Below are positions 4,080 to 35,499 of a stretch of DNA of 37,619 bases, piece by piece (within the stretch, counting starts at the first letter, position 1; each line of letters starts with the position of its first letter). The stretch is from positions 1-37,619 of the forward strand of contig JAJFUG010000078.1 of the NCBI GenBank assembly GCA_021372515.1, read 5' to 3'. This DNA is from a bacterium. Lineage in GTDB: Bacteria > Gemmatimonadota > Glassbacteria > GWA2-58-10. The notes under the pieces were generated by a model, which ran no database searches, was not told the origin of the DNA, and saw only the letters and a list, made by a program, of their open reading frames with translations. Both the position numbers and the translations under genes were made by a program.

Positions 4080-5813
4080 TTACGGGATCACCGGCAGCAC
4101 GATCCGCGAGGGATAGAGCTTGCCGTGGTGTACGCCCTGGCTGGCTTTCTCGATCCGCGTGCCGGTGGCGAAATCCTCACCCGTGTTCAGGTTGCGGTCG
4201 AAACGCGGGAAGTTGCTGCTCGAGACCTCCACCCGGATGCGGTGGCCCTTGAGGAACACGTTGCTGGTGGCCCAGAGGTCGATACTGTACTCGTAGATTT
4301 TGCCCGGCTGAATGGGCGTGGGCGCCTTGCCCGGCTCGCGGTACGTGGCCCGCACGATCCCGTCGCACAGGCTCATCGCCCGGCCGTCCGGGTGCACGTC
4401 CAGCAGCTTTACCGTGAAATCGGTGCTGGGGGCCGAGCTTTCGGCCCAGAGCACGGCGCGCACCGGTCCGGTCACCTCCAGGTCGGCGTCCAGCGCGGCC
4501 GTGGTGTAGACCAGGATATCGCCGCGCAGCTCCTTGGCCGCCTCGTCATAGGGTCCCTCCATCGCGCTCAGGACCGGGTCGCGCGGGTCGTAGACAAAGC
4601 GGTCGGGGTTGTCGCGGGCCGGGACTTTTTCGCTCAGGACACCGTCGCCGTTACGCGTGTTGGCCTTTCCGCCGCCGTCCAGGTAGAAATCGCGGTACTG
4701 GGTGCGGGCCAGGGGCCACTCCTTCTCGTTGCGCCACTCATTCCGTCCCATCACGAACAGACGCACCGGGCCGAGGGTGTCGAGACCGGTGTCGAGGCCC
4801 TTGATCCGGTTGTCGAACCACTGCAGCTCGATCTGCCGCACATCCAGGACCGCGCCCTTGCCGAAATCCAGCTCGCCGGTGCGGCCGTCGCGGGTGAAAC
4901 TGTGCACCCAGGGCCCGATCAGCAGGCGCTGCCCGGCGCGCACGGCCGGGTCGATGCCCGAGGCGGTCATGGCGCTGAAATTGTTGAGCGTGCCGTGCAA
5001 AAGGATATCGAACCAGCCGCCCACGTTGAACGCCGCGGCCCGTATCTTCGAATGCCCGTCCCCGACAGTGGTCGGCTCCCAGTAACGGTCGTGCTCGGGG
5101 TGGCTCAGCCAGTCGCGCAGGAACGGCACTTTCCAGCCGGCCAGCCGGTCCTGGTCGGCCAGCGGCAGGGACTCGTAGATTTTCATCAACTGCTCATCCG
5201 TGCGCTTGGCGTTGAGGCCGTAGGGCAGGGTCATCTCGAAGCTCCAGGCGCTCCAGAGGCTCATGCGGAACGCGCCGCCGTAATAGACCTCATCGTGCAT
5301 GTCCGAGGCCGTGACCACCGGGAACATCGCCACCAGACGATCCTGGTCGGCCTGGGGGGCGGGCATCCACTGGGTGAACCCCACGTAGGAGCCGCCGAAC
5401 GTGCCGAACCGGCCGTTGCACCAGCTCTGCGCGGCCAGCCATTTCTGGCTGTCCACGCCGTCGTCCCGCTCGTTCCGGACCGCGTCGAACAGGCCCTCCG
5501 ACTCACCCCGTCCGCGCACATCCATCAGCACCACCGCATAGCCGCGCGAGGCGAAGAAATGCCCCTCGCCGTTACCCGCGCCGCCGTTGCCGTAGGGCGT
5601 GCGCAGCAGGAGCGCCGGGAACGCGCCCGCGGTGTCCGGACGGTAGATGTTGGCCGAGAGCCGCACCCCGTCGCGCATCTCGACTTTCACGTCCAACTCC
5701 TCGCGCACGCGGTAGGCCGCAGGCGAGGTGTCCGCCGCGAGCCGGGATACGGGAACAGCCAGCCAGAGCAACAGCAGCACCAGGAACAGCCCTCGAACGG
5801 GTCGACTGCGCAT
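4080..5813 (-). CDS. Secreted CocE/NonD-family hydrolase (X-Pro dipeptidyl-peptidase/esterase fold)
   Basis: 577 aa with an N-terminal signal peptide (about 1-27). An alpha/beta-hydrolase core starts at VEMRDGVRLSANIYRP (about 45-59). The nucleophile elbow is GGSYVG with Ser142 preceded by FGTFG; a likely catalytic Asp lies in NVGGWFDILLHG and His in GPWVHS. The C-terminal 220 residues (VRAVLWAESSAPSTDF, then GHRIRVEVSSSNFPRFDRN) are the jelly-roll domain of the X-Pro dipeptidyl-peptidase C-terminal family. Members cleave acyl esters, amides or X-Pro peptides. The signal peptide suggests a periplasmic or secreted hydrolase. It is a distant paralogue of the 15278-17308 gene. It starts 3 nt after a poor Shine-Dalgarno sequence (GGAGCGCTCCC), so the exact start is less certain. 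Confidence 0.88.
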   Translation of the reverse strand: MRSRPVRGLFLVLLLLWLAVPVSRLAADTSPAAYRVREELDVKVEMRDGVRLSANIYRPDTAGAFPALLLRTPYGNGGAGNGEGHFFASRGYAVVLMDVRGRGESEGLFDAVRNERDDGVDSQKWLAAQSWCNGRFGTFGGSYVGFTQWMPAPQADQDRLVAMFPVVTASDMHDEVYYGGAFRMSLWSAWSFEMTLPYGLNAKRTDEQLMKIYESLPLADQDRLAGWKVPFLRDWLSHPEHDRYWEPTTVGDGHSKIRAAAFNVGGWFDILLHGTLNNFSAMTASGIDPAVRAGQRLLIGPWVHSFTRDGRTGELDFGKGAVLDVRQIELQWFDNRIKGLDTGLDTLGPVRLFVMGRNEWRNEKEWPLARTQYRDFYLDGGGKANTRNGDGVLSEKVPARDNPDRFVYDPRDPVLSAMEGPYDEAAKELRGDILVYTTAALDADLEVTGPVRAVLWAESSAPSTDFTVKLLDVHPDGRAMSLCDGIVRATYREPGKAPTPIQPGKIYEYSIDLWATSNVFLKGHRIRVEVSSSNFPRFDRNLNTGEDFATGTRIEKASQGVHHGKLYPSRIVLPVIP

Positions 5814-10461: not shown

Positions 10462-11033
10462 TGTAATGTCCTTGCGCCGATAATGGCCATGGAGCTGGAT
10501 TTCAACGTCATCTACCTGAACCGGGCCGGGGCCGGGGCGCTGGGGCTGACGGAGGCGAGCGCCCGGTGCAGGAAATGCAACGAACTTTTCAAGAGACCGG
10601 CCACTGCCGCACATCCAATTGCGGCTACGCGCAGGCCATGCGCGAAAGAAGGGCGCTCACCGCCGACACCGTAGCCAGTCTGCCCGCTGTAGAGATTTCC
10701 ATCCGCTACACCGCGGCGCCGTTGTACTACGGGAAGGGCAAAGTGCTTGGCACGCTGTAATATGTGCTGGACATCTCGAAAGACGTGCAGAACACCCGCG
10801 AGATCGCCGCTCTCACCGAGGCGGCGCAGCAGGGCAAGCTCGATTCGCGCGCGGACGAGAGCGTTTTCGAGGGCAACTACCGTCAAATCGCCGAGGGGGC
10901 CAACCGCCTGCTCGACAGCCTGCCGCGGCCGGTGGAGGAGATGATGGTCACAATGGGCCGGGCCGCACGCAAGGACATGACCGCGCGGATGGACGGAGAG
11001 TGCCAGGGCCTTGTCGGCCCGATACTGAGCCGG
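10462..11033 (+). pseudogene. Decayed methyl-accepting chemotaxis protein (PAS part)
   Basis: Pieces of a PAS-containing chemoreceptor lie in two frames. The first frame gives APIMAMELDFNVIYLN, GAGALGLTEAS and CNELFK. After a 2-nt insertion (apparent AG duplication near 10584) the next frame gives TGHCRTSNCGYAQAM, VEISIRYTAAPLYYGKGKVLGTL, a TAA stop at 10758-10760 where the family usually has Glu, and then YVLDISKDVQNTREI, YRQIAEGANRLLDSLP and KDMTARMDGE. The usual order in MCPs is PAS, then this linker, then the signalling coil. The coil is missing: homology stops near 11033. So it has no proper start, one frameshift, one nonsense change and a lost C-terminus, and is clearly dead. It lies just before a kinase-like and a receiver gene, suggesting an old signalling locus that was rearranged. 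Confidence 0.8.
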
Positions 11034-11122
11034 ACAAACCGAAAATACATATCCCGAACTGACCGTGTCGAGGAACGGCGCGGGAAAACAAATGCCAACC
11101 GTGAAAAAGAAAGACATCTTCT

Positions 11123-11890
11123 ATGAAAACTGATTTTGAAATGACCCTCCAGGCCGGCATCGAGGCGGTGATCGATAACCTCCCCTCCTCCATTTTTCTG
11201 GTGGACAGGGAGAAGAATATCGTTCTGGCCAACCGTTCCGCCTCGATCCTGACCCGGATACCCAAGGACAAGCTGGTCGGCCGGTCCAGCGCCCATGTCC
11301 TGCGCTGCAAGTATCTGGACAAGGGAACCGGTGGTTGCGCGGAGAGCGGAGTCTGCCGGAGCTGCATGCTCCGCAGCGTGATCGACGATTCATTCATTTC
11401 GCGCACCGAGTACTCGGATGTGGAGACCGAGTTCCATTTCGCCGACCGCGGCCCGCGTATACTCAGGCTGTCCACGCGGTATTTCCCCGAGAGCGACACG
11501 GTCATGGTGGCGATCAACGACATGACTGCGGCCCGTCGGGTCGAGGCCCAGCGTATCGAGAACCGGACCCTGAAAGCCGCCCTGGAGACCTCGCTCGCGG
11601 TCTGTCACGAGATATCACAGCCGCTGCAGGTGATATCCGGCTATCTCGAGATGCTGATGTTCGACGGGGGACTGCGGGACAGCAGTTTCCACTGTCTCCA
11701 GGAAATCAGGAAACAGATCCAGCGCCTGCGCGATATCAGCACGGGGCTGCAGAACCTGCGCACTCTGCGCATCGACGATCAGAATCGCCTGGACAGCGCC
11801 AGGGACGGCAAAGCCTTATCTTCCGCAGGGATGGAAAGGTTAAGACCGGAGGGAGCAATCCATGAAAAAACGAATACTGTTCGTGGATGA
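11123..11890 (+). CDS. PAS sensor with phospho-acceptor helix but no kinase ATPase domain
   Basis: 255 aa, cytoplasmic. Residues 10-138 are a PAS domain (VIDNLPSSIFLVDREKNIVLANRSA at the start, ending in VAINDMTAARRVEA) with four inserted cysteines (C62, C72, C78, C81; spacing 9, 5, 2) that could bind a metal or Fe-S cluster. A HisKA-like hairpin follows, with His162 in VCHEISQPLQVISGYLEML and a second helix ending near 215. No N, G1 or G2 box of a HATPase domain appears before the stop, and the last 40 residues are low in structure. It overlaps the next gene by 29 nt, so the two are almost surely co-expressed. Either the protein is phosphorylated by another kinase or it has been truncated. 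The Shine-Dalgarno sequence is weak. Confidence 0.75.
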   Translation: MKTDFEMTLQAGIEAVIDNLPSSIFLVDREKNIVLANRSASILTRIPKDKLVGRSSAHVLRCKYLDKGTGGCAESGVCRSCMLRSVIDDSFISRTEYSDVETEFHFADRGPRILRLSTRYFPESDTVMVAINDMTAARRVEAQRIENRTLKAALETSLAVCHEISQPLQVISGYLEMLMFDGGLRDSSFHCLQEIRKQIQRLRDISTGLQNLRTLRIDDQNRLDSARDGKALSSAGMERLRPEGAIHEKTNTVRG

Positions 11891-12272
11891 CGAGGTTTCC
11901 ATTCTCGAAATGCTGCGTATGGCCTTCGAGCAGTTCGGCTACGAGGTCTACACGGCCGACAGCGGCATGCAGGCGGTCGAACTTCTGAAATCAGTCAAAG
12001 TCGATTGCATGTTTTTCGACCTGCGCCTTCCCGGCATGGACGGTATTGAGCTGTGCCGGATCATACGGCGAGACAACCCGATTGCCGCCATCTTCGCCAT
12101 GACCGGCTACGCCAACGTGTTCGAGCTGTTCGACTGCCGCGAGGCCGGGTTCGACGATTATTTCCTCAAGCCGTTGGACCTGCAGGCGATCCTGGGCACT
12201 GTGGAGGCCGCTTACGAACGCTTGGAACGCTGGAAGCTGAAACGGCCCGAGGCCACGTCCGTAGCCCAGTGA
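11862..12272 (+). CDS. Receiver-only response regulator
   Basis: 136 aa CheY-like domain with all key residues: D9/D10/E11 (VDDE), phospho-acceptor D53 (FFDLRLPGMDG), T81 (AMTGYA) and K103 (FLKPLD). There is no output domain, only a short helical tail (YERLERWKLKRPEA). GGAGGGAGCAATCC precedes the ATG. It starts inside the end of the ATPase-less sensor gene, which makes it that protein's natural partner. Output would be by protein contact, as for CheY/Spo0F-type proteins. Confidence 0.9.
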   Translation: MKKRILFVDDEVSILEMLRMAFEQFGYEVYTADSGMQAVELLKSVKVDCMFFDLRLPGMDGIELCRIIRRDNPIAAIFAMTGYANVFELFDCREAGFDDYFLKPLDLQAILGTVEAAYERLERWKLKRPEATSVAQ

Positions 12273-12291: not shown

Positions 12292-12987
12292 TCAGCCGAT
12301 CCAGAGGCCCTCCAGCCGGACCTGAAGGCCATCCGGCGTGCGGTTGAGGTAGTTCACCAGTCCGCTGTGCCGCCACTGCAGCATGCAGCGGCGCGGCTGA
12401 AAGAAATAGCGCATGCCGATCCTCACCTCGCAGCGCGCCTGACTGATCAGGCCCTCGTAGCCCTCGGCGCTGTAGTAGCCGAGGTCCTTGCACCCCTGCT
12501 GGCGCGGCTGCAGGGGACCGGTGACGCACCAGAGGATCACGCCGGTGCGCGTGTCCACGTTCAGCGCCACCCCGCAGTGCGTGACCGGGCAGCCGCAGGA
12601 CATCCCCAGCGGCCGGCCGATCAGCAAATCACCCTCCCGTATCTCCAGCTCGCGTGTCAGCATCGGATTGTGCGGCAGGATTATCTCCCGCGGCCCCGGA
12701 TCCTCGGGGAAATGCTCCAGGTAAAAATCGAACTCCCGGCCCAGGCTGTCCCGCCAGGGTTGAGCTGTTTCCGTGGACTGCCCGGAGCAGACGCAGGGCA
12801 TGGCCGGCGCGCAGGGGAGCGGCTCGGCGGCCGAATGAGTCTGCGGATGCAGGGTGTCCTGCGAAAGGTGAATGCAGCGTTTCAACAACTGCGGCCGGCC
12901 CTCCAGACGTCCGGCCAGCTCGGCGCAGGTACGGAACCCGCAGACCCCGCAGTCCAGTCCGGGCAACTCTTTCTCTGTGATCGACAC
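12292..12987 (-). CDS. Fe-S-binding protein of the Rrf2/ABC/GTPase unit
   Basis: 231 aa from a GTG at 12987, chosen because GGGGGAGGAG lies 5 nt upstream; an in-frame ATG at 13056 overlaps the stop of the previous gene as ATGA and would add 23 poorly structured residues. Near the N-terminus LDCGVCGFRTC followed by a Cys 17 residues later (C13, C16, C21, C38) is the C-x2-C-x4-C-x16-C pattern of the 4Fe-4S domain found in corrinoid protein and RnfB-type proteins. More Cys follow in CAPAMPCVC and MSCGCPVTHCG, and the C-terminal part has WCVTGPLQ and a Cys in RRCMLQW. It is likely a cytoplasmic electron carrier or cluster/metal scaffold. It is the last gene of a tightly packed unit. Confidence 0.75.
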   Translation of the reverse strand: MSITEKELPGLDCGVCGFRTCAELAGRLEGRPQLLKRCIHLSQDTLHPQTHSAAEPLPCAPAMPCVCSGQSTETAQPWRDSLGREFDFYLEHFPEDPGPREIILPHNPMLTRELEIREGDLLIGRPLGMSCGCPVTHCGVALNVDTRTGVILWCVTGPLQPRQQGCKDLGYYSAEGYEGLISQARCEVRIGMRYFFQPRRCMLQWRHSGLVNYLNRTPDGLQVRLEGLWIG

Positions 12988-13052
12988 GGACTCTCCTCCC
13001 CCATCGTTATATTTCTGACTGCGGCGAAAGGGCGGCGGATACCCCCGCGCGC

Positions 13053-13754
13053 TCATTCCCCACGGTAGAAAGTCTGGTTTTCCAGCGGCCGGACCACCCC
13101 GAAATGCGATTGCCAGCCGACCTCTTTTTTCCCGACACAGATCGTGCAGGTGCCCACCGGCGGGTTGCCGCGCAGCAGCATGCGCTCACCTGCCTCCGGA
13201 GCCTCTCCCAGCATTTCCAGCAGCGGATCGATCCCGATCCCGTGCAGGGCGTTCACCTCGCGGATGCGCACCGACGGGGCCACATCCTGGATGCGCGCCC
13301 GGAACACCTCGCGCTCGGCCTGGCTCACCCGGTCGATCTTGGTCACCACGGCCACATCGGCCAGCGAGAGCATCGGGCCGACCTTGAGCGGCAGGTTCAT
13401 CCCGCTGGTGGCCTCCAGCACGATCATCCCCAGGCCCGTGTCCACGTACGGCGAACAGCGCAGGCACAGCCCCGCGGTCTCCACGATCAGGAAATCGGCC
13501 TGCTCCCGGCGCGCCCATGCGACCGCGTCCCCCAGCACCATCACGTTGCAGTGGTCCGGGCAGAGCTCGCCGGAGTATACCTTGCGCACCGGGATTCCGA
13601 ATTCGCGCGCGAACTGCTCGTCCTCCTCGGCGTACTGCACGTCGACCTTCAGAAACACCACCCGAGTTCCCCCGGCGAGCAGACGGCGGACCATGTGCCG
13701 CAGGACCGAGGTCTTTCCGGTAGTGGCCGGCCCGGCGCAGATCAGAAGTCGCAT
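13053..13754 (-). CDS. HypB/UreG/CobW-like P-loop GTPase
   Basis: 233 aa. The P-loop is GPATTGKT (8-15). A specificity motif TKID (138-141) follows VADVAVV-type strand 5, in the usual place for GTP binding in the SIMIBI class. Cys pairs stand out: C65-x3-C69 in ELCPDHC, which recalls the CPH metal motif of UreG; C97/C100 in GLCLRC after the ETAG switch; and C203/C206 near the end. That suite suggests a nucleotide-gated metal or cluster inserter or chaperone, like HypB (Ni), UreG (Ni) or CobW (Co/Zn). The first codons overlap the end of the ABC gene by 13 nt, and it runs into the Fe-S gene, so the three are likely translated together. The exact client is not evident. Confidence 0.8.
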   Translation of the reverse strand: MRLLICAGPATTGKTSVLRHMVRRLLAGGTRVVFLKVDVQYAEEDEQFAREFGIPVRKVYSGELCPDHCNVMVLGDAVAWARREQADFLIVETAGLCLRCSPYVDTGLGMIVLEATSGMNLPLKVGPMLSLADVAVVTKIDRVSQAEREVFRARIQDVAPSVRIREVNALHGIGIDPLLEMLGEAPEAGERMLLRGNPPVGTCTICVGKKEVGWQSHFGVVRPLENQTFYRGE

Positions 13755-14536
13755 GCGAGTCCCTCCAGCATCCCGGCGCTCAGACGCTCGCCGTTGCGCA
13801 GGCGCTCACGCAGGCCGCCCAGCATCTCGTCCAGACGGCTCACCCCGGCGGCGCAGCGGCGCTCCGCCTCATCGGTATGCAGCACCTTGCGCATCGAGCC
13901 GCCCTGCATCACGATCCGGTAGTCGGACAGCAGGGTGATCCGCGGGTCGTGGGTGACGAAGATGAAAATTTTGCGGTACCCGCGCAACAGCTCCAAGGCC
14001 CGGCTGCGGTGGATGCCGGCGTTCTCGACCTCATCCAGCAGGATGATCGGGGTGTTGCAGATCACCGTGGCGTCCGCGATCAGCAGCGCCCGGGTCTGGC
14101 CGCCCGACATCTCGGTCATGCGGCACCCCGGACGGACCGGCTCGCCGGTGAGCTGGTTGGCGAAGACGAGCACCTGCTCCACCAGCCGGCTGACCTGTCC
14201 CTGCTCGCTGCTGCGGATACGGGCGTGGATGGAGAGGAACTCCTCCACCGGCAGGTCGGACAGGAACGAGGTGTGCTGGGTGATAAGGGCGACCGGGTTG
14301 TGGGCCGGGTCGTGGCGGAACCGGGCCGGTGGTGTGCAGCCATCGATCAGGATACGCCGTCCGCTTGGCGTGTTGGCCTCCGCCAGCAGCTCGATGTCGT
14401 CGATCAGGGTCGATTTGCCCGATCCGGTCGGCCCGACGATGCTCACCATGTCCCCCATGCGCATCTCGACCCGCTCCACCGGCTCTGGCTGACCGTCTCG
14501 GCCGACCCCCCCCAGGATTGTCAAGCTCTCGACCAT
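13742..14536 (-). CDS. Soluble ABC-type ATPase, stand-alone
   Basis: 264 aa with a full ABC set: Walker A GPTGSGKS (35-42), Q-loop Q87 (ALITQHTSF), signature MSGGQ (143-147), Walker B IILLDE (164-169) and switch His196 (VTHD). The spacing is normal for one nucleotide-binding domain. No membrane-spanning partner is encoded nearby, and the gene overlaps that of a metal-type GTPase, so transport is not the obvious role. ABC ATPases without permease also act in metallocofactor assembly (SufC) and in enzyme activation (AtwA of methyl-CoM reductase), and such a role is my inference here. The N-terminus (residues 1-34) carries no extra domain. A palindrome like the one at the Rrf2 promoter lies just upstream of its ATG. 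Confidence 0.85.
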   Translation of the reverse strand: MVESLTILGGVGRDGQPEPVERVEMRMGDMVSIVGPTGSGKSTLIDDIELLAEANTPSGRRILIDGCTPPARFRHDPAHNPVALITQHTSFLSDLPVEEFLSIHARIRSSEQGQVSRLVEQVLVFANQLTGEPVRPGCRMTEMSGGQTRALLIADATVICNTPIILLDEVENAGIHRSRALELLRGYRKIFIFVTHDPRITLLSDYRIVMQGGSMRKVLHTDEAERRCAAGVSRLDEMLGGLRERLRNGERLSAGMLEGLACDF

Positions 14537-14548
14537 TATGTTATTTGT

Positions 14549-14561
14549 CCTATGGAATAAG
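14549..14561. promoter_or_regulatory. Second candidate Rrf2 operator, before the ABC gene
   Basis: CCTAT-GGA-ATAAG, one mismatch from a perfect palindrome and matching the layout of the site at 14996-15008 (CCTAT-N3-ATAGG). It lies 12 nt before the ABC ATG in the 44-nt gap after the Rrf2 gene, so the regulator could control the downstream genes separately. Confidence 0.5.
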
Positions 14562-14580
14562 TCGTATAACCTGGAAAAAA

Positions 14581-14982
14581 TTATTTTACATCCTCCAGGC
14601 TGGTTTTTTCGAGCGTTTCCGAGACATAGTCGCGTATCTGGCGGAAAACCTGCACCAGGCTTTGCTCACTCTCGATGGGGGTGGGCTCGTAGAAATACTT
14701 GCTCACCGATTCCGTGGGCGCCAGCGCACCGTCGAACAGGCGGATGATCTCGGCCAGCGAGATGTCCCGGGCCGGCAGGGCCAGACGGTAGCCGCCGCCC
14801 TGGCCTTTCTGGCTCGCAACGTAGCGGGCGCGCTTGAGGGTCAGGAGCAGTTGCTCCAGGTACTTGACCGGGATTTTCTGCGCCTCGGCGATCGACTCGA
14901 CCCGGATATAGCTGTCCGAGTTTGCGCGGGCCAGGTGCAACAGCGCCAGCAGGGCGTATTCGCTGCGTGTGGTCAGTTTCAT
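14581..14982 (-). CDS. Rrf2-family transcriptional regulator lacking the cluster cysteines
   Basis: 133 aa. The winged-helix domain is typical of Rrf2: MKLTTRSEYALLALLHLA at the start, an HTH in VESIAEAQKIPVKYLEQLLLTLKRA and the wing SQKGQGGGYRLALPARDISLAEII. Fe-S members such as IscR, NsrR and RsrR carry three Cys just after this point. Here the segment reads LAPTESVSKYFYEPTPIESE and the whole protein contains no Cys. So it cannot hold a Cys-ligated cluster, and must sense another signal (metabolite, peptide, protein partner) or use non-Cys ligands. It leads a unit with ABC ATPase, GTPase and Fe-S protein genes. A palindrome at its own promoter points to autoregulation. Confidence 0.9.
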   Translation of the reverse strand: MKLTTRSEYALLALLHLARANSDSYIRVESIAEAQKIPVKYLEQLLLTLKRARYVASQKGQGGGYRLALPARDISLAEIIRLFDGALAPTESVSKYFYEPTPIESEQSLVQVFRQIRDYVSETLEKTSLEDVK

Positions 14983-14995
14983 CGCTATTATATGA

Positions 14996-15008
14996 CCTAT
15001 ATGATAGG
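14996..15008. promoter_or_regulatory. Candidate Rrf2 operator at its own promoter
   Basis: Perfect palindrome CCTAT-ATG-ATAGG placed right after the -10 box of the minus-strand promoter (15018-15045), roughly +3 to +15. A site here would block transcription when bound, as is usual for Rrf2-type repressors. A near copy lies at 14549-14561. Confidence 0.6.
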
Positions 15009-15017
15009 GTTAATAAT

Positions 15018-15045
15018 ATAATAACCGCGGAAACCCGACTGTCAA
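15018..15045 (-). promoter_or_regulatory. Sigma-70-type promoter of the Rrf2 unit
   Basis: On the minus strand TTGACA (complement of 15040-15045), a 16-nt spacer, then TATTAT (complement of 15018-15023). The start codon is at 14982, about 30 nt past the expected transcription start. Confidence 0.65.
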
Positions 15046-15277
15046 GTTTTTTCGACCGTCTGCCGTCGATCTGGCGAGTGAAGCCAGGAGTGCAGACTGG
15101 ATTATTTGCTGGACATTTCAACTTGCAGTTTTTAACTATTACCGAATTGGTCCGGTCCGGGCTGGAATCTTGTTTGTGCCTTCCGGCCATCAGATAATCA
15201 AGCCGTTCGGGGCAGAGCGGGCAGGCACGAGCGGCCCTGCGGCAGTCAACGCTTTTACCAGCTCAGGAGGTGCGGCA

Positions 15278-17308
15278 ATGGCATGGATCAACGTTCGGAC
15301 CGTCCGTGAGTCTCAACCCCATCCCAAGCCCCGCACTTGCCGGGGCGCCGTTGCGGGGATGGTTTTCCCGCTGCTGCTGTTTTTTGCGGCGCTGGGTTTC
15401 AGCCCGGCCCCGGCCGCCCAGGGCGACAGCCTGGCCCCCAGGTATCCGCAGCTGCCCAGCGAGATTCCAGCCAGCTTCAAGCCCGTGACCGACAGTTTCG
15501 ACTATGTCAAGCGTGAGGAGATGATCCCCATGCGCGACGGGGTGAAGCTTCACACGGTGATCGTGGTGCCGCGCGGGGCCAAGGGGGCGCCGATTCTGCT
15601 CACCCGCACGCCCTACAAGGCCGACAAGTACCTGAGCGGGCGCTGGAGTCCGCACATGGGCATGCTCCTGGCCGGCGACAACGCCAGTGAACTGATCCTG
15701 GAGGACGGGTACATCCGGGTGTTCCAGGACATACGCGGCAAGTACGGCTCCGAGGGCGACTACGTGCTGACCCGCCAGGTGGCCGGCCCGCTGAACCCCA
15801 CCCCGGTCGACCACGCCACCGACACCTGGGACACGATCGACTGGCTGGTGAAGAACATCCCGGAGTCCAACGGCAAGGTCGGCATCATCGGCACCTCCTA
15901 CAACGGTTTCCTGTCCCTGATGGGCCTGGTCAACCCGCACCCGGCGCTCAAGGCCGCCGTGCCGATCAACCCGATGGTGGACGGCTGGATCGGGGACGAC
16001 TGGTTCCATTACGGCGCATTCCGCTTGGTCAGCCTGCCCTATATCTACAGCCAGGAGAGCACCCGCGGCTCCGATTTCGGCTGGTGGCCGGTCCATTCCG
16101 ATGAATACGAGGAATGCCTGCTGGCCGGCTCTGCGGCCGCTCTGGGCCATAGCCGCGGCCTGGAGCAGTCAGGGTTCTGGCGCAAAATACTGGAGCACCC
16201 GGACTACGACTCTTTCTGGCGCGACCAGGCCATGGACAGGATCCTGGCGGCCCAGCCGCTCAAGGTGCCGGTGATGCTGGTCCACGGGCTCTGGGACCAG
16301 GAGGACATCTACGGTGCGCCCGCGGTCTACCGGGCCCTGGAGCCGAAAGATACGGCCAACGACATGGTGTACATGGTGCTCGGCCCCTGGTCGCACGGCC
16401 AGGCCAGCCGGGACGGGAACAGCCTGGGAGCGGTGCGTTTCAATTTCGACACCGCCCTCTATTTCCGTCAGAACATTCTGCGCCCGTTCCTGGCCCAGCA
16501 CCTGCTCGACCGCGCCCCGGCGCAGAAAGTCCCGCCCGTGGCCGCATTCGAGACCGGAACCAACCGCTGGCTGAGCCTGGAATCCTGGCCCGCCGCCGGT
16601 GACAGGGACAAGAGCATCCAGCCCGCGCCGCTCTACCTCAAGGCCGGGCTGAAACTGGATTTCAGCGCCCCCAAAGCTGGGGATGCGGAGTACGAGGAGT
16701 ATGTCTCCGACCCGGCCAAGCCCGTGCCCTACCGCGCCCGCCCGATCCCAGCGGCCGGTTACGACGAGGAGCGCGGCTGGTCACACTGGCTGACCGACGA
16801 CCAGCGCGAGGCCTCGAGCCGCCCGGATGTGCTGGCTTTTGTCTCGGAGGTCCTGACCGGGCCGGTCAAGATCAGCGGCACGCCGGAGGTCAACCTGGTG
16901 GCCTCCACCAGCGGCACGGATTCGGACTGGGTGATCAAGCTGATCGATGTCTACCCGGATGAGGTGTTCAACCAGCCCGAGATGGGCGGGTTCCAGTTGA
17001 TGGTCTCGGCCGACATCTTCCGTGGACGCTACCGCGAGAGTTTCGAGAATCCCAAGGCCCTGGCCGCCGGCAAGCCGCTGGCCTACACTTTCAGCCTGCC
17101 CAACGCCAACCACGTGTTCCTGCCCGGCCACCGGATCATGGTGCAGGTGCAGTCCACCTGGTTCCCGCTCTACGACCGTAACCCGCAGAGTTTTGTCCCC
17201 AACATTTTCCAGGCCCGGCCCGCGGATTTCCAGAAGGCCGTGCAGAGAGTCTATCACAGCCCGGCCCAGGCCAGTTTCATCCGCCTGCCGCTGGTCAAGG
17301 ACATGTAA
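15278..17308 (+). CDS. Secreted CocE/NonD-family hydrolase
   Basis: 676 aa from the ATG at 15278, preceded by AGGAGG with 8-nt spacing; the open frame continues upstream to 15170 but without a good start. A signal-like stretch (GAVAGMVFPLLLFFAALGF) spans about residues 23-45. The alpha/beta-hydrolase core shows MIPMRDGVKLHTVIVVP, the nucleophile elbow GTSYNG (Ser207), an Asp in LVHGLWDQED and His in GPWSHGQ. The C-terminal jelly-roll (TGPVKISGTPEVNLVAST, GHRIMVQVQSTWFPLYDRN) marks the X-Pro dipeptidyl-peptidase/CocE family. It likely hydrolyses peptides, esters or amides outside the cytoplasm. It is larger than the 577-aa relative at 4080-5813 and stands alone, divergent from the Rrf2 unit. 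Confidence 0.88.
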   Translation: MAWINVRTVRESQPHPKPRTCRGAVAGMVFPLLLFFAALGFSPAPAAQGDSLAPRYPQLPSEIPASFKPVTDSFDYVKREEMIPMRDGVKLHTVIVVPRGAKGAPILLTRTPYKADKYLSGRWSPHMGMLLAGDNASELILEDGYIRVFQDIRGKYGSEGDYVLTRQVAGPLNPTPVDHATDTWDTIDWLVKNIPESNGKVGIIGTSYNGFLSLMGLVNPHPALKAAVPINPMVDGWIGDDWFHYGAFRLVSLPYIYSQESTRGSDFGWWPVHSDEYEECLLAGSAAALGHSRGLEQSGFWRKILEHPDYDSFWRDQAMDRILAAQPLKVPVMLVHGLWDQEDIYGAPAVYRALEPKDTANDMVYMVLGPWSHGQASRDGNSLGAVRFNFDTALYFRQNILRPFLAQHLLDRAPAQKVPPVAAFETGTNRWLSLESWPAAGDRDKSIQPAPLYLKAGLKLDFSAPKAGDAEYEEYVSDPAKPVPYRARPIPAAGYDEERGWSHWLTDDQREASSRPDVLAFVSEVLTGPVKISGTPEVNLVASTSGTDSDWVIKLIDVYPDEVFNQPEMGGFQLMVSADIFRGRYRESFENPKALAAGKPLAYTFSLPNANHVFLPGHRIMVQVQSTWFPLYDRNPQSFVPNIFQARPADFQKAVQRVYHSPAQASFIRLPLVKDM

Positions 17309-23059: not shown

Positions 23060-26000
23060 TCAGTTGACTATGTAGAACTTACCGGTCACCGTCTTCCCCC
23101 GGCTATCTGTCACGTGATAGAAATACAGTCCGCTCGCCACAGTCGTCCCGAAACGGTTGCGCATGTTCCAGGGCTCGGTCCCGCTGTGGTTGTCGTAGCC
23201 CGTAAGCTGCAGGGGTTGACTGCTGTTGTTCAGACGGTCCCAGTCGGCGTAGTTGCCCCAGCCGTGACGGTTGGCGCTGATGTGGTTGAGCACGTTGACC
23301 AGGTGGCCGCCCATCGAGTAGATGCGGATGGTGCAGCGGTCCGGCAGGTTGACGAACTCGATGCGCCGGCTGTCCGCCGACAGGTCGAGGAAGGAGCTGG
23401 CTATGTACGGGTTCGGCACCACGCGGACCTTGCCCAGGTCCGCGTCCTCGGCGTTCATGGTCGAGGGCTTGATCTTGATCTCCCACTTGTCGCCCGGCAG
23501 GGCCATGTCCGAGAACTGGGTGAACTCGGTCTGGCCGTCGTTCCAGGAGCCGAAGGCGTTGTCGACGATCCAGACCGTTCCCGGCGTGGGCATGCTGATA
23601 CCGTCGCCGCCGTCTCTCTCGACCGCCCAGAGCAGACCGTTCAGGAAAAATCCGAACTGCATGGTGTTGTCCGCCGGCAGAGTGGATTCCATCTTCACGG
23701 TGCGTTCGCTCTTGGGCAGCTTATCGAGGAACGCCTCCGTGTAGTAAGTCCCGACCGGGGAATCGCCGCCGGTGAGAATCGGGCCGCCGAAACCTTCCTG
23801 GGTCTGGAAGCCCCAGCCCCATTCATCCGGATAGTCGACCTTGTTGACCGCGGCGTTTCCGGTCAGGTTCATGACTTCCACGGTCAGGTTGCCGCCGCCG
23901 GCGTCTTTCCAGGTGACCTGGAAACGGCCGGACACGGTGGTGCCCAGGTTGCTGGGCGAGGTGCCGGGCTTGTCGCCGCACCAGCGGGCCTGCGGCAGGG
24001 AGATGTCGCCTCCCGTGTAGGCGCCCGGATTCATGTGATAATACAGGCTTGAAGAAAGGCCCCGCCTGTCCATTGCATCAAAGGTGAACTTGATGCTGTA
24101 GTCGATGCCGGCGTTGTCGACCGGGCCGGAGAAAGTGAGCGTCGGGCGGGCCTCGCTCTGGGTGAGATCGACCAGGGGGCTTTCGTAGCTGCCGTCGACC
24201 AGGGCCAGCCTGTTGGCTGCGGCCTGGCGCTGACCGGCGCAACTCCCGTCCTCGTCTTGGGCTTCCTTTTCCTTGACCGTCAGATAGATGGTCTTGGTAG
24301 CGGTTATGCGCTCGTTGTTGATCGGAATGAAATTGATCTCGCGCATCTCCAGCGGCTGGAGAGACAGCGGCGGATCGGTCAGGCTGCCGTCGCCGGGGCC
24401 GTGGAGAATCGCGGTCGGCGAATTTTCCATCTGCCGGCCGTCGCCGCTGATGAACTTGGCCGTACCTTCAAGGGTAGCTGTCTTGAAATTGCTGGCGTCA
24501 CTGCGCGGGATGACCGTGTAGAGTCCGTTCGGGCCGACACGGTTCCAGACTTTCCCGCTGCTCTCGGGCGGCTGGCTGAACATTTCGCCGGTGGCCGGGT
24601 CATAGTTCCTGTCGTAGGGCACCAGGGCGTACCAGACTTTCTGTCCGTTCTCCATGCGCTGTAGCGGCTGGTCGTCTTCCTTCTTGTCCACATAGTAGTA
24701 GACAATATTCCCGGCGGATTTGCTGCAATTCATCAGCATCACGGAATGGGAGTCGTTGGGGCCGACATAGCTGCGGTACAGACGGTAGCCCTCGAAATCG
24801 TATTCTACATAAACATGGTTCGGGTCGAGTTCGGGGTTCGCCTGCAGGAAAGCGTAGTACGCATCCGGGGTGTTGACATTGATGTCGCTCCAGGTGATGG
24901 TCACCTGGCGGTCACCGGGGATGATGGTCAGCGCCGGCGGGATCGGTGTTTCAGGCACCACGTAGCCGCCTTCCCAGGTCAACTTGGCCACGCTGGCGTA
25001 TTGCATCGCCGGCGCGAAGAACTTCTGGCAATCCGCGTTGTCCATGTTGACCAGCTCCCCGCGCGGGAACGCGAAATTGCTCGGGTCGCCGTAGGTGAAC
25101 ATCATCACCCAGTCGTAGCTGCACGTATCGCGCGGGGCGAAATCGCTGATGTAGCCGTAGTGCCAGTACATGTTCCGTCCGACCCGGTCACCCCAGAGCC
25201 ACTGGTTGTAACGTGCGTCGGAGGGCTCCAGCATGCCGGGGTAGCCGAAAGCCACTTTCCCGTCGAAAGGATTGATGCCTCCGCCGAGGACGTATTCGCT
25301 GTGGCCGCGGCCCCGGGACAGGTTGTACTGCTTGCCGTATGCATAGCCCGTTTCACCGGTGTCCTGGTTGCCGGAGAAACCGAACTCCACAACATCATAG
25401 GAGTTATAGCAATTGTTGGTGGGGACCATGACCTGGCCGTTGAACTCCGGCAGGCGCAGGGCCCAGTCGATCACGATGAAGGGGTCGGTGCTGAACGAGG
25501 CCTCGATCCCGTCCTTGTCGGCGAACACGTGGATCCCCAGGGGCGTGAAATAGCCCCAGATTTCGTTGTTCGCATCCCGGACGCCGACACTCGGGTTGTT
25601 GGCGATGGAGCGGTGGAGGGTGAATTCCTTGTAAACCTGCCCGTCCGGCTGCCCGGCGGCCTTGCCGCGGATGTCCGGATTGGGGTTCCACTTCAGGTAC
25701 TCGGACATGTTGCGGATACGGGTATGCGCGTACAGGATGTTGTTGCTTTCGGCGAAATTCAGGAAATGGAAGCGGTGCTCAAGGCTTGCGCCCGACGCCC
25801 AGTCATCTCGCTGAAAGGCGTCGCCGCAACGCATGACCACGGTTTCGGCGCCGTGCAGGATCGGCTGCCCCGCTTCATCGCAGAACTCGGGGTACCAGTC
25901 CGCCAGGTCCTCGGGGTCGAGCGAGGTCAGCGTGCGGTTGTGATCGATCCGGCTGGCGGCCTGATCCATGCTTTCTCCGGCGCTGAATGCCGCCTCCAGC

Positions 26001-26338
26001 TCGTTGTAGCTTTCCAGGGAGGTGTTCATGCCGACGAAATGTCCACCGCGGGCGCCCTCGCCCAGAGTGTCCTCGATCGTCCCGTTGCCGTCCATGTCGC
26101 GCAGCACCATTATACCCCAGCTATTGCGCCCTGCAGTGTAATAATTGGCCGAGCCGCGCGGAAAATAGTGATACACGTTGTTACCGAAGGGCGCGCCTGA
26201 CGCGTGCGTGAAATGGAGACCAAGGTTGTTGCCCTTGGAATCGTATTCCTGCTTCTGTTCCGCCGTTGCCGCCGTTGCCCAAAAGGTCAGCAAGACGCCC
26301 AGTGCTGTCGCAACCAAATAGAACTTGATCATTCGCAT
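23060..26338 (-). CDS. Large secreted protein with type IX-like C-terminal domain
   Basis: 1092 aa. A signal peptide spans about 1-26. The bulk is beta-rich with fibronectin-like parts (PPALTIIPGDRQVTITWSDI at about 475) and no catalytic motif I can name. A calcium-loop-like RDMDGNGTIED lies near residue 80. The C-terminus starts VRVVPNPYIASS, passes RRIEFVNLPDRCTIRIYSMGG and ends in VASGLYFYHV and KTVTGKFYIV, the classic FlgD-Ig-like/T9SS type A sorting pattern. It is most likely exported and attached to, or released from, the outer surface. It lies 58 nt after the TonB receptor and 59 nt before the PorV-like gene, and AGGAGA precedes the ATG, so the three form one operon. It may be a surface binding partner of the receptor, by analogy with SusD/SusE, but this is inferred. 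Confidence 0.8.
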   Translation of the reverse strand: MRMIKFYLVATALGVLLTFWATAATAEQKQEYDSKGNNLGLHFTHASGAPFGNNVYHYFPRGSANYYTAGRNSWGIMVLRDMDGNGTIEDTLGEGARGGHFVGMNTSLESYNELEAAFSAGESMDQAASRIDHNRTLTSLDPEDLADWYPEFCDEAGQPILHGAETVVMRCGDAFQRDDWASGASLEHRFHFLNFAESNNILYAHTRIRNMSEYLKWNPNPDIRGKAAGQPDGQVYKEFTLHRSIANNPSVGVRDANNEIWGYFTPLGIHVFADKDGIEASFSTDPFIVIDWALRLPEFNGQVMVPTNNCYNSYDVVEFGFSGNQDTGETGYAYGKQYNLSRGRGHSEYVLGGGINPFDGKVAFGYPGMLEPSDARYNQWLWGDRVGRNMYWHYGYISDFAPRDTCSYDWVMMFTYGDPSNFAFPRGELVNMDNADCQKFFAPAMQYASVAKLTWEGGYVVPETPIPPALTIIPGDRQVTITWSDINVNTPDAYYAFLQANPELDPNHVYVEYDFEGYRLYRSYVGPNDSHSVMLMNCSKSAGNIVYYYVDKKEDDQPLQRMENGQKVWYALVPYDRNYDPATGEMFSQPPESSGKVWNRVGPNGLYTVIPRSDASNFKTATLEGTAKFISGDGRQMENSPTAILHGPGDGSLTDPPLSLQPLEMREINFIPINNERITATKTIYLTVKEKEAQDEDGSCAGQRQAAANRLALVDGSYESPLVDLTQSEARPTLTFSGPVDNAGIDYSIKFTFDAMDRRGLSSSLYYHMNPGAYTGGDISLPQARWCGDKPGTSPSNLGTTVSGRFQVTWKDAGGGNLTVEVMNLTGNAAVNKVDYPDEWGWGFQTQEGFGGPILTGGDSPVGTYYTEAFLDKLPKSERTVKMESTLPADNTMQFGFFLNGLLWAVERDGGDGISMPTPGTVWIVDNAFGSWNDGQTEFTQFSDMALPGDKWEIKIKPSTMNAEDADLGKVRVVPNPYIASSFLDLSADSRRIEFVNLPDRCTIRIYSMGGHLVNVLNHISANRHGWGNYADWDRLNNSSQPLQLTGYDNHSGTEPWNMRNRFGTTVASGLYFYHVTDSRGKTVTGKFYIVN

Positions 26339-31930: not shown

Positions 31931-31963
31931 CAATATTTTGGAGTGCCTCCAATATTTTGGAGT
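31931..31963. repeat. Short direct repeat and hairpin at the regulator gene end
   Basis: A 14-nt unit beginning CAATATTTTG occurs twice (31931-31944 and 31950-31963, period 19). The second overlaps a hairpin CTCCAA-TATT-TTGGAG (31947-31962) just past the stop of the minus gene. It may be a weak terminator or an operator. Confidence 0.4.
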
Positions 31964-34900
31964 CAGGAGGTCTTTCGGCGGGGCGGCGTCTCCTTCCTTA
32001 CGCCGAGCTTAACCATCTTTGCTTCCAGCGTGGTCGGCTTCAGGCCCAGCAGTTCGGCGGCCCCGGATTTGCCTCTGACCCTCCAGCCGGTCATTTCCAT
32101 CACATTGACAATGTGCTGCTTATCAAGGTCATCCAGAGTAAGCACTTGCTTGGTCGAGGCGCTCGTGTTCTCGAGGCACTCGCTCAGCTTTAGCTGGCTG
32201 CCGCTGCTGACAATCACGGCCCGCTCAATGACGTTCTGCAGTTCGCGGATGTTGCCCGGCCATTTGTAGGCCTGCAAAGTGTCGAGCACGCTCTGGGGGA
32301 TGGCGCTGATCTGTTTGCCGATCCTTGAATTGAACTGGTTGACGAAATGGTTCACCAGCAGAGGGATGTCTTCCTTGTGTTCCCTGAGAGGCGGGCATTT
32401 GATAGGGTATACGTTCAATCTGTAGTAGAGGTCCTCGCGGAAAGCGCCGCGGCTGACCTCCTGTTCCAGGTCGCGGTTGGTGGCCGCGATAATCCTGACA
32501 TCGACATGGATGGTGTTTGTACTGCCCAGCCGCTCGAATTCACCATCCTGCAGCACACGCAAAAGCTTGGCCTGCAGCTCCAGCGGCAATTCGCCGATTT
32601 CGTCCAGGAACAGCGAGCCGCCATCGGCCAGCTCAAACCGTCCTGTTTTGCGCGAGACTGCGCCGGTGAAAGCCCCCTTCTCGTAACCGAACATTTCACT
32701 TTCGATCAGGCTGGCCGGGATGGAAGCACAGTTGATTGTCACCAGCGGCTTGTAGGCGCGGGGGCTCAGACGGTGCACGGCCCTGGCGATAAGCTGTTTG
32801 CCGGTGCCCGTTTCGCCCAGGATCAGGACCGTGCTGTCGGTGAAGGCCACTTTCTCCACTCTTTCCAGCACCTTGTTCAGCGCCTCGCTGTTGCCGATTA
32901 TCTCGTTGAAGTTGTGGGTCAGCTTGATCTCTTCCTGCAGGTAGATATTCTCGGCCTGGAGGCGGTCTTTCAGGTTTTTCACCTCGATGTTTTTCTCACG
33001 GAGGGCCAGCTCCACTTTCTTGCGTTCGGTTATTTCGGCAAGAAGCTCGGTATTTCTTTTCTGGATCAGGCGTGTCCTGACATTCAGCACGACCCAGCCC
33101 AGACCCAGTACCGCGCTCAGCATGAGCGCCCTGAACCAGAGGGCCGACCAGAAGGGCGGCAGAATCTCGAACTGAAGCCGGGCCGTCTCGGCGTTCCAGA
33201 TACCGTCGCGGTTCCTGGCCCGCAATTCGAATTCATATCTGCCCGGAGGAAGATAGGGGTAGGAGGCAGAATTCAACCTGGTTTCTGTCCACTCTGTATC
33301 CAGGCCCTCGAGCTTATAGCTGTAGACGACCTCCTCCGGAGCGGAAAGGCTGATTCCGATATAGTCGATTTTAAGGCTGTTCTGATTGTAGCGTAACCGG
33401 AGGCCGTTGGTCAGCGTGGTGTCTTTTTCGGCGATCCTGAAGCGCGTTATGTACAGAGGCGGGGGCAGAGTATCGCGCTTGATCGCCGATGGGTCGAATT
33501 TGATCACTCCGTGCAGGGAGTTGAACCAGAAGTTGCCTTTTTTATCTTCGATCGGCTGCACGGCAGCGAAAGAGAACTGGTGGATGCCTGCCGAGGCGAA
33601 AAACCCGTCGTTCCTTGCGGTGAAGGTGACAAAAGACTTGCCGTCGAAGCGGTCGAGCCCCAGGGGGACACGGAAAAATAATCCGGCCCCGGTCTCGAAA
33701 ATATAATAGCAGACATTGCTGGACAGGCCGTTATCCGTGGTGAAATGCGTCAATTTCCCGTCGAGCAGACGGCTTATTCCGCCGCCGCCGGTCCCCGCCC
33801 AGAGCGCCCCGTTCCTGTCCCGGTACAGAGTGATTATCTCGTTGCTGCCGGGAGTGCTTCCGAGGGAATAGAATTCACTCTCGATCCGGTTGTGGTTCGT
33901 GACATATTGGCAATAATCGTCAATCTTCGGATTGACCAGGCCGCTGTCCGTTCCGAACCAGTACCCTCCTCGCCCGTCCGGGGCAATCGCAGTGAATTTC
34001 ATTCCCTGGTTCAAAAAAGTCCGCTCGAAGTTTTTGGCTACGATCAACCCCTCCTCTGATCCTGAAAGCAAACATCCGCCTGCCGTCTGTTGATTGAAAA
34101 ACAACAATGGTTTCATGGCGCTCGAGAAGTGGGTCTTATCCGGTTTTTCTTCGAAGTCCCGGCCGTTGAATCTCAATTGATACCCGACTTGCTGAGTGAA
34201 ATACAGGTTACCTTTGTCATCTTCGGAAGAGACCTCTTCCAGCCAGAGGCTGTCGGTCGTGAAAGCCCTGAGACTATTACCTTCGACTCTGTGAAGCGTT
34301 AAACTGGTGTTGAACCAGAGACCGCCCCTGCTGTCTTCGTACACACACGAAACCAGTTTTCCATCCCTGGACAGCAACGTGGTCCAGCGCTCCCCGTCAT
34401 ACTTGACAGCTCCTTTGACGTTTTCGGAAGTGAACCACAGATTTCCCCTCGAATCCGCCAGCATCGGCACCAGGGAATTGCACGGCAGCCCGTCCGCGAC
34501 GGTGTAGAGGACAAACGCCTCTCCGCTGAACCTGGCCGCACCGTTTCCGTTGGTCCCGATCCAGATGTTTTTTTCGCTGTCCTCGATCAGAGATGTGATC
34601 CGGTTGGAGGGCAAGCCTTTGTCCGTGTTGTATGTTTTCCAGGTCCGGCCGTCGTACACACCCAGGCCGCCGTCCGCCGCCAGCCAGATCCGGCCCTGGC
34701 TGTCTTCGAGAAGCACCGGGTCCGAGCCGTTGGGTATTCCGTCCTTGACGGTATAGGATTCGAGACTCGCGTTCCGGTAATCCCCGGACATCTTGATCGC
34801 GATCGTTCCCTCGATGAACGGATTCACGCCGGCCAGCCAGATATCACCCCTTTTGTCTTCTATAATGGAATTGATGTGGGAATCGTAGAAGGGGCCGAAC

Positions 34901-35499
34901 GACTTGATATTTGTCCATTCTTTCCCGTCGAATACACATATTCCTTTCCTCTGAAGTCCGACCCAGATATTGCCCCTGGAGTCTTCGATGACGGTCCGCG
35001 TTCTGTTCTCACCCAGCACCGAGTCGGAAAAGACTGTCCAGTTGGTTCCATCGAACCGGACCACCCCGTTGCCGAAGGTGGCGAACCACATGTTGCCGTG
35101 GGAATCCTCCATGATCGACCAGGTTGTCACGAAAGGTGGAAAGTGATCTTTGTAGTAGCGCCAGTTCACTCCGTCGAACCTGCCGATCCCTTTGCCCGGG
35201 AAACTGAGCCAGAAATCACCCTTGGAATCCTGGTGTATTCTGAAGACATTGTTCGACGGCAGTCCGTCCCGTGTGGAAAAAGTCGTAAACGATTTACCGT
35301 CGAATTTGATTAAACCGTTAGTCGTGGCGAACCAGAGATAACCGAGGCGGTCCTGGAGGATGCTGTTGATTTGGGTGGAGCCCAGTCCCTCTTCCACATC
35401 GTAATTGCGGAAAAAGTATCTCTCGGCCCGGGCCTCTTGCCGGGAAAGCGGCAGCAAAACGGCTGCGGAGAAGATGATTGGCAGGAGGATTCTTTTCAT
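31963..35499 (-). CDS. Membrane propeller sensor fused to a sigma-54 AAA+ activator
   Basis: 1178 aa. Signal or anchor 1-26. Residues about 30-690 are two-component-regulator propeller repeats ([74 protein letters not shown]), the periplasmic ligand sensor of hybrid systems. A Y_Y_Y Ig-like domain follows ([33 protein letters not shown]), then a membrane helix (about 787-806) and a coiled coil (about 815-870). Instead of a kinase comes a sigma-54 AAA+ domain: Walker A GETGTGKQ (895-902), GAFTGA (942-947) and Walker [12 protein letters not shown] (960-970). A Fis-like HTH is near the end ([18 protein letters not shown]). It should sense a periplasmic ligand and remodel RNA polymerase-sigma-54 directly, with no phosphorelay. 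It is likely membrane-bound. Confidence 0.93.

Follow-up and report, generated by a model that had tools for sequence, protein, structure and literature searches.

What is the task of four tightly packed minus-strand genes at positions 12,292 to 14,982 of contig JAJFUG010000078.1 (assembly GCA_021372515.1), from a bacterium that GTDB places in the Glassbacteria of the Gemmatimonadota? The window analysed here is the whole stretch of 37,619 nucleotides in which they lie. In the direction of transcription they encode an Rrf2-family regulator of 133 amino acids without cysteine (14581..14982, (−); PF02082, E = 1e-32), a stand-alone ATP-binding cassette (ABC) ATPase of 264 amino acids (13742..14536, (−); PF00005), a predicted G3E (HypB/UreG-like) GTPase of 233 amino acids (13053..13754, (−); PF02492) and an iron-sulfur (Fe-S) protein of 231 amino acids (12292..12987, (−)), in which a PF04060 N-terminus is followed by an unclassified C-terminal domain. 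An earlier note on this DNA had named a cysteine-free regulator, an ABC ATPase, a cysteine-rich GTPase and an Fe-S protein, and the Pfam assignments agree with it. It had also suggested an undescribed metallocofactor module. Our family, structure and literature searches are consistent with this: no earlier description was found in the open-access literature searched, and the module is apparently undescribed. We regard it as a metallocentre system based on a G3E GTPase and see a real chance that it is categorically new; its genomic company points tentatively to a step in sulfur assimilation that depends on a metal and on nucleoside triphosphates.

Relatives of the unit were collected by scanning genomes, one for each species, for close homologues of the GTPase. 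The scan gave 44 loci, on contigs of other genomes, with GTPases 68–87% identical to the window copy; they come from the Verrucomicrobiota, Chloroflexota, Planctomycetota, Omnitrophota, Melainabacteria, Pseudomonadota, Acidobacteriota, Actinomycetota, Lentisphaerota, Delongbacteria, Myxococcota, Elusimicrobiota, Bdellovibrionota and Bacillota. Since the same gene order recurs in these 44 contigs, the arrangement is far beyond chance and the module is real; the homologues are not scattered, scatter being what the earlier note had held to be incompatible with a module. Of the 43 loci with room for it, 42 have the ABC gene next to the GTPase gene, in most cases with an overlap of 1–13 nt. The Fe-S gene lies downstream in each of the 39 loci that have room for it, in one of them as a fragment only. 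A NifS-type cysteine desulfurase, which the window unit lacks, sits between the GTPase and Fe-S genes in 28 of 42 loci, and a closely related Rrf2 gene precedes the module in 21 of 42. Because Rrf2 occurs in only these 21 loci and the ABC and Fe-S genes are near-constant, the core of the module is ABC-GTPase-FeS, NifS is a frequent member and Rrf2 is optional. In the window we class the regulator as accessory. Most complete GTPases are exactly 233 amino acids long, and the pairwise protein distances co-vary (Mantel r = 0.79 for GTPase and ABC, the strongest, and 0.67 for GTPase and Fe-S protein; 0 of 2000 permutations as high). As minor variants, two Chloroflexota carry a tandem Rrf2 pair upstream of the module (L036:8142-9157 and L038:8206-9156), and in the locus with the Fe-S fragment (L061:10001-10790) a truncated GTPase precedes that fragment and there is no ABC gene, apparently a decaying module.

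We suggest a role in sulfur assimilation because cysteine- and methionine-synthesis genes are the only telling recurrent neighbours. When the flank genes were clustered, the commonest groups outside the module were CysK-type genes (11 loci) and MetY (9 loci); MetX, MetW and serine acetyltransferase each occurred in 3 loci, as did the other recurrent clusters, which look generic. With fixed sulfur-gene queries, 45 neighbouring genes were counted in 18 of 49 module loci as against 0 of 60 control regions from the same genomes, nearly equal in total length (p = 3e-17, a value that overstates independence because part of the queries were taken from module loci and some of the loci are related to each other; the effect is large). 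MetY, CysK, MetX/W, serine acetyltransferase, CysDNC, TauE and ComA recur. Orders in individual loci are CysC-CysD-CysN-TauE-module in L056, module-ComA-..-TauE-ComA in L057 and MetX-MetW-MetY-module in L125, while in L123:1-4538 a transport operon lies upstream of the module and MetY downstream. In L055 (Heliobacterium mobile) the order is module-MetY-nitrogenase-like D/K; the flanks of the module there contain two nitrogenase-like D/K pairs (L055:4220-7136 and 14280-17067), a gene for a UroD-like methyltransferase, and MetY. Nitrogenase-like genes stand with serine acetyltransferase by the module in L045, and nitrogenase-like H-D-K genes adjoin it in Pararhodospirillum oryzae. Pfam scans of ~160 flank open reading frames (ORFs) gave no recurrent metalloenzyme. 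ComA, with a coenzyme M or phosphosulfolactate route, was tried as the common link and rejected, only 6 of 50 genomes being over the cut-off. An actinomycete metagenome-assembled genome (MAG) without PF01077 carries CysH-CysC-ComA and a TauE-like permease (L080:5621-9719), which is possibly another route for handling sulfite.

The module is rare and patchy. Of the 298 host-phylum genomes, the one studied here alone has it, judged by a full-length Fe-S protein; it also occurs in 8 of 189 Omnitrophota (full-length matches) and in 5 of 199 and 3 of 200 genomes of two further classes. In the tree, whose forks mostly have weak support, phyla with several module members do not form single clades. 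The pattern is most naturally explained by horizontal transfer, and the module is best read as mobile and self-contained. The window's genome has one copy each of the GTPase and the Fe-S protein. Records named for isolates (P. oryzae, H. mobile and Geotalea toluenoxydans) carry the module, and so do contigs of 100–400 kb. A search of plasmids with the Fe-S protein gave no match. The best candidates for closer GTPase kin in the host phylum, L002 and L003 (34–37% identity), have no ABC or Fe-S neighbour and were set aside. Misbinning of the window itself is countered by its tetranucleotide signature, which among 91 loci lies nearest another contig of its own genome.

The assignment of the GTPase to the G3E superfamily is based on its PF02492 score (47.6 bits, gathering threshold 20.7) and on an AlphaFold model (pLDDT 83) whose best Foldseek matches are UreG (E = 6e-11) and HypB (9e-11). 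With these proteins it shares the fold, the Pfam family, the P-loop and the ETAG and TKxD motifs, and its C65-P-D-H68 aligns with the position of the UreG CPH motif. It differs from them in having only ~19–21% identity to the structures, in its extra CLRC and C-terminal CTIC/H motifs and in its ABC ATPase partner; genes for HypA, hydrogenase or urease were not seen to recur nearby. The scores for HypB (TIGR00073, 53 bits) and UreG (TIGR00101, 21.5 bits) are below the cut-offs of 121.2 and 204.2. Mean column identity in the alignment of relatives is 84%, and C65, H68, C97, C100, C203, C206 and H217 are invariant; the protein may bind a metal and hydrolyse GTP. The invariant residues and the UreG/HypB fold fit the metal- or cluster-handling GTPase proposed earlier. 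The 68–87% identity to the window copy across many phyla implies strong constraint, and no family model searched names this GTPase. Defence-system models gave one weak match to it.

SufC and AtwA are ABC ATPases that have no permease, and the module protein is like them a stand-alone ATPase beside cluster-related genes. Its alignment shows Walker A (GPTGSGK), signature (SGGQ) and Walker B (LLDEVENAG) motifs. Unlike the case of SufC, no SufB/SufD partner genes recur beside the module, and unlike that of AtwA, which belongs to the activation of methyl-coenzyme M reductase (MCR), the flanks hold no recurring Mcr/Mmp genes. The 56 best PDB matches of the ABC profile include neither SufC nor AtwA. 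Defence-system models matched the ABC protein weakly (best mad3, E = 2e-20), which we take as generic ATPase similarity. The lack of a permease seen earlier was borne out: the four-gene unit of the window has none, and flank clustering with Pfam scans of the same flank ORFs found neither a recurrent permease beside the module nor a pairing of the ABC gene with one in relatives.

The Fe-S gene is shorter than first read. As listed, its ORF starts at ATG 13056 and overlaps the GTPase gene by 4 nt, which we judge too long. In the alignment most homologues start a few residues ahead of LPGL(D/N)CG, and GGGAGGAG lies immediately upstream of GTG 12987 in the window; for these reasons we place the gene at 12292-12987, with GTG as the likely start. 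Consequently, of the packing described in the earlier note, the four close genes and the 13-nt ABC/GTPase overlap are retained and the 4-nt overlap is lost. The gap of ~65 nt that now separates the GTPase and Fe-S genes is the site of the cysteine desulfurase in the 28 relatives; the Rrf2 stop and the ABC start are 44 nt apart. The N-terminal cluster domain (PF04060, 30.3 bits, gathering threshold 23) has the pattern CX2CX4CX16C with invariant cysteines and aligns with the corrinoid/Fe-S protein. It is shared with AcsC, the large subunit of that protein, and with RnfB, but only ~50 residues are common. The C-terminal domain has an invariant SCGCPxTHCG followed by a later Cys and His (C126, C128, H132, C133, C196 and H202 in the numbering of alignment A2), no Pfam or NCBIfam match and no Foldseek match in the PDB at E ≤ 0.001. 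Several weak entries (E ~0.3–1) of an FMN split-barrel flavin-reductase fold are not trusted. The NifS of the relatives is nearest TIGR03402 (477–495 bits, just below the NifS cut-off of 530.75) and carries the SGSACS active-site loop as NifS/IscS do, differing from these in being embedded in an ABC-GTPase-FeS operon.

Rrf2 regulators are frequent controllers of Fe-S genes. In the module Rrf2 proteins the cluster-binding cysteine loop is swapped for a conserved TESVSxYFYExTPIE; a loop of the IscR/NsrR type is found only in the divergent Rrf2 of L055. The window protein passes the NCBIfam cut-off for the Rrf2 superfamily, and the best named subfamily is CymR (6e-22), although its 78.2 bits are far below the curated cut-off of 195. 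CymR with CysK is a known regulator of cysteine metabolism (PMC2869319). Like CymR, the module regulator is of the Rrf2 family, and it lies near CysK in several relatives; unlike it, it goes with a palindrome essentially confined to the module promoter in the loci scanned. This palindrome, of the type TTCCTA...TAGGAA, is found at the promoter in several relatives, with one further weak match in those loci. The window carries a related variant, the putative operator ACCCTATCATATAGGT (14995..15010, (−), running from 15010 to 14995), a CCTAT-CAT-ATAGG inverted repeat read from the sequence between the promoter and the Rrf2 start. The putative promoter (15015..15045, (−)) is a consensus match only, with TTGACA at 15045-15040 and ATTATA/TATATT ~17–19 nt downstream.

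We consider it quite possible, if short of probable, that the module is a metallocentre system, mobile and self-contained, with a role in sulfur assimilation. The Fe-S protein would be its functional product. Its N-terminal cluster, spaced as in the corrinoid/Fe-S protein, would hand electrons of low potential on to a second centre, located in the C-terminal domain; NifS may be the sulfur source for this centre, the Cys/His-rich GTPase may supply or check the metal, and the ABC ATPase could power assembly or conformational activation. The finished protein would then help to convert an oxidised or organic sulfur source to the sulfide or thiol that CysK and MetY use. The cysteine-free Rrf2, where it occurs, might bind the promoter palindrome and couple expression to sulfur status, as CymR does. 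A bolder form, on balance unlikely, is that of a new kind of reductase driven by nucleoside triphosphates: a metal or mixed-metal cluster of a novel type, seated in a new fold of the Fe-S protein, would be assembled by NifS and the GTPase, take its energy from the ABC ATPase and under anoxia turn sulfite, sulfonate or other low-value sulfur into sulfide. Such a reductase would join the nitrogenase-like, double-cubane/ASKHA and MCR-activation systems as energised low-potential systems. Re-activation of a low-potential enzyme, put forward in the earlier note, is a further conceivable task. Should the link to sulfur prove right, annotation misses a step of sulfur assimilation in many uncultured anaerobes, and the module is a compact model for a possible cooperation of a GTPase and an ABC ATPase on one metal centre.

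Several points weigh against a role in sulfur assimilation. The module's own genome lacks siroheme sulfite/nitrite reductase and strong CysH/CysD, and hence no oxidised sulfur substrate is evident there. In 31 of 49 module loci, and in the window, the flanks hold no sulfur gene (many flanks are short), the enrichment queries are mildly circular and five positive loci are Omnitrophota. Taking the L123 operon for an SsuABC-like sulfonate transporter is a by-eye reading, catalysis is a guess as long as the C-terminal fold is unmatched, and several MAG contigs could be misbinned, which would add to the patchiness. The main rival, somewhat unlikely to us, is a dedicated metallocluster assembly or activation system, with NifS, ABC ATPase, GTPase and Fe-S scaffold, whose client enzyme is encoded elsewhere and whose cysteine-synthesis neighbours just feed NifS. 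The TIGR03402-like NifS, the metallochaperone fold of the GTPase, the habit of Rrf2 proteins of controlling Fe-S genes and an operon without a recognised catalytic enzyme all suit it. Cysteine supply, however, does not explain MetX, MetW, TauE, CysDN and ComA as neighbours, no client enzyme recurs in the flanks, and a third of the loci have no NifS.

A siroheme-independent sulfite reductase, in which the ABC ATPase and the GTPase power the delivery of electrons to the Fe-S protein for the reduction of sulfite to sulfide, would suit the CysDNC/TauE and ComA neighbours. It would also suit the distribution of PF01077: of the 29 module genomes in which PF01507 (CysH/CysD) is strong, 17 lack it, compared with about 50 of 164 PF01507-positive Thermoleophilia without the module (counted from listings; Fisher p = 0.005, a suggestive difference that is confounded by phylum); all 3 module-positive Thermoleophilia lack PF01077. 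We find this reading improbable, since 12 of the 29 do have PF01077, hit lengths suggest that many PF01507 matches are CysD and not CysH, and the module's own genome has neither strong PF01507 nor PF01077. With 30% of module-negative controls also lacking PF01077 the distribution is not strictly complementary, and strict replacement of the siroheme enzyme was rejected. Still less credible is a maturation or electron-donor system for nitrogenases or the nitrogenase-like methylthio-alkane reductase (MAR), despite the H-D-K genes by the module in P. oryzae and the two D-K pairs with MetY in H. mobile. The module shares with MAR/type I mlp clusters an anaerobic sulfur/methionine context and MetY, and MAR feeds methionine salvage (PMC10418091). 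On the other hand, most module genomes have no nitrogenase-like gene: PF00148 is over the cut-off in only 13 of 45, and not in the 99.5%-complete genome of the window, and on these counts the obligate client suggested by L045 and L055 was rejected; the always co-occurring metalloenzyme expected earlier was not found. Moreover, R. rubrum MAR was produced in R. capsulatus from marBHDK in a study that mentions no ABC or GTPase factor (PMC12552129), and GTPase, HypB and Rrf2 all go unmentioned in the mlp cluster paper. The idea that the ABC ATPase is part of an importer, with mere bystanders as its neighbours, deserves almost no credence; its PF00005 domain and its best PDB sequence matches, mostly transporter ATPase domains, would allow it, but its gene overlaps that of the GTPase in most loci, its distances co-vary with those of the GTPase and no permease recurrently adjoins.

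Elsewhere in the window, an ORF of 1092 amino acids (23060-26338) without a Pfam match at E ≤ 1e-6 is flanked by a weakly OMPP1/FadL-like ORF and a TonB-dependent receptor, and a protein of 1178 amino acids (31963-35499) combines a Reg_prop/Y_Y_Y sensor with the AAA+ domain of a sigma-54 activator. HAMP, PAS-HisKA and response-regulator genes (10764-12272, (+)) are convergent with the Fe-S gene and end 19 nt from its 3' end. Two S15 X-Pro dipeptidyl-peptidase genes lie on the contig, at 4080-5813 and 15170-17308, the second adjoining the module and divergent from it.

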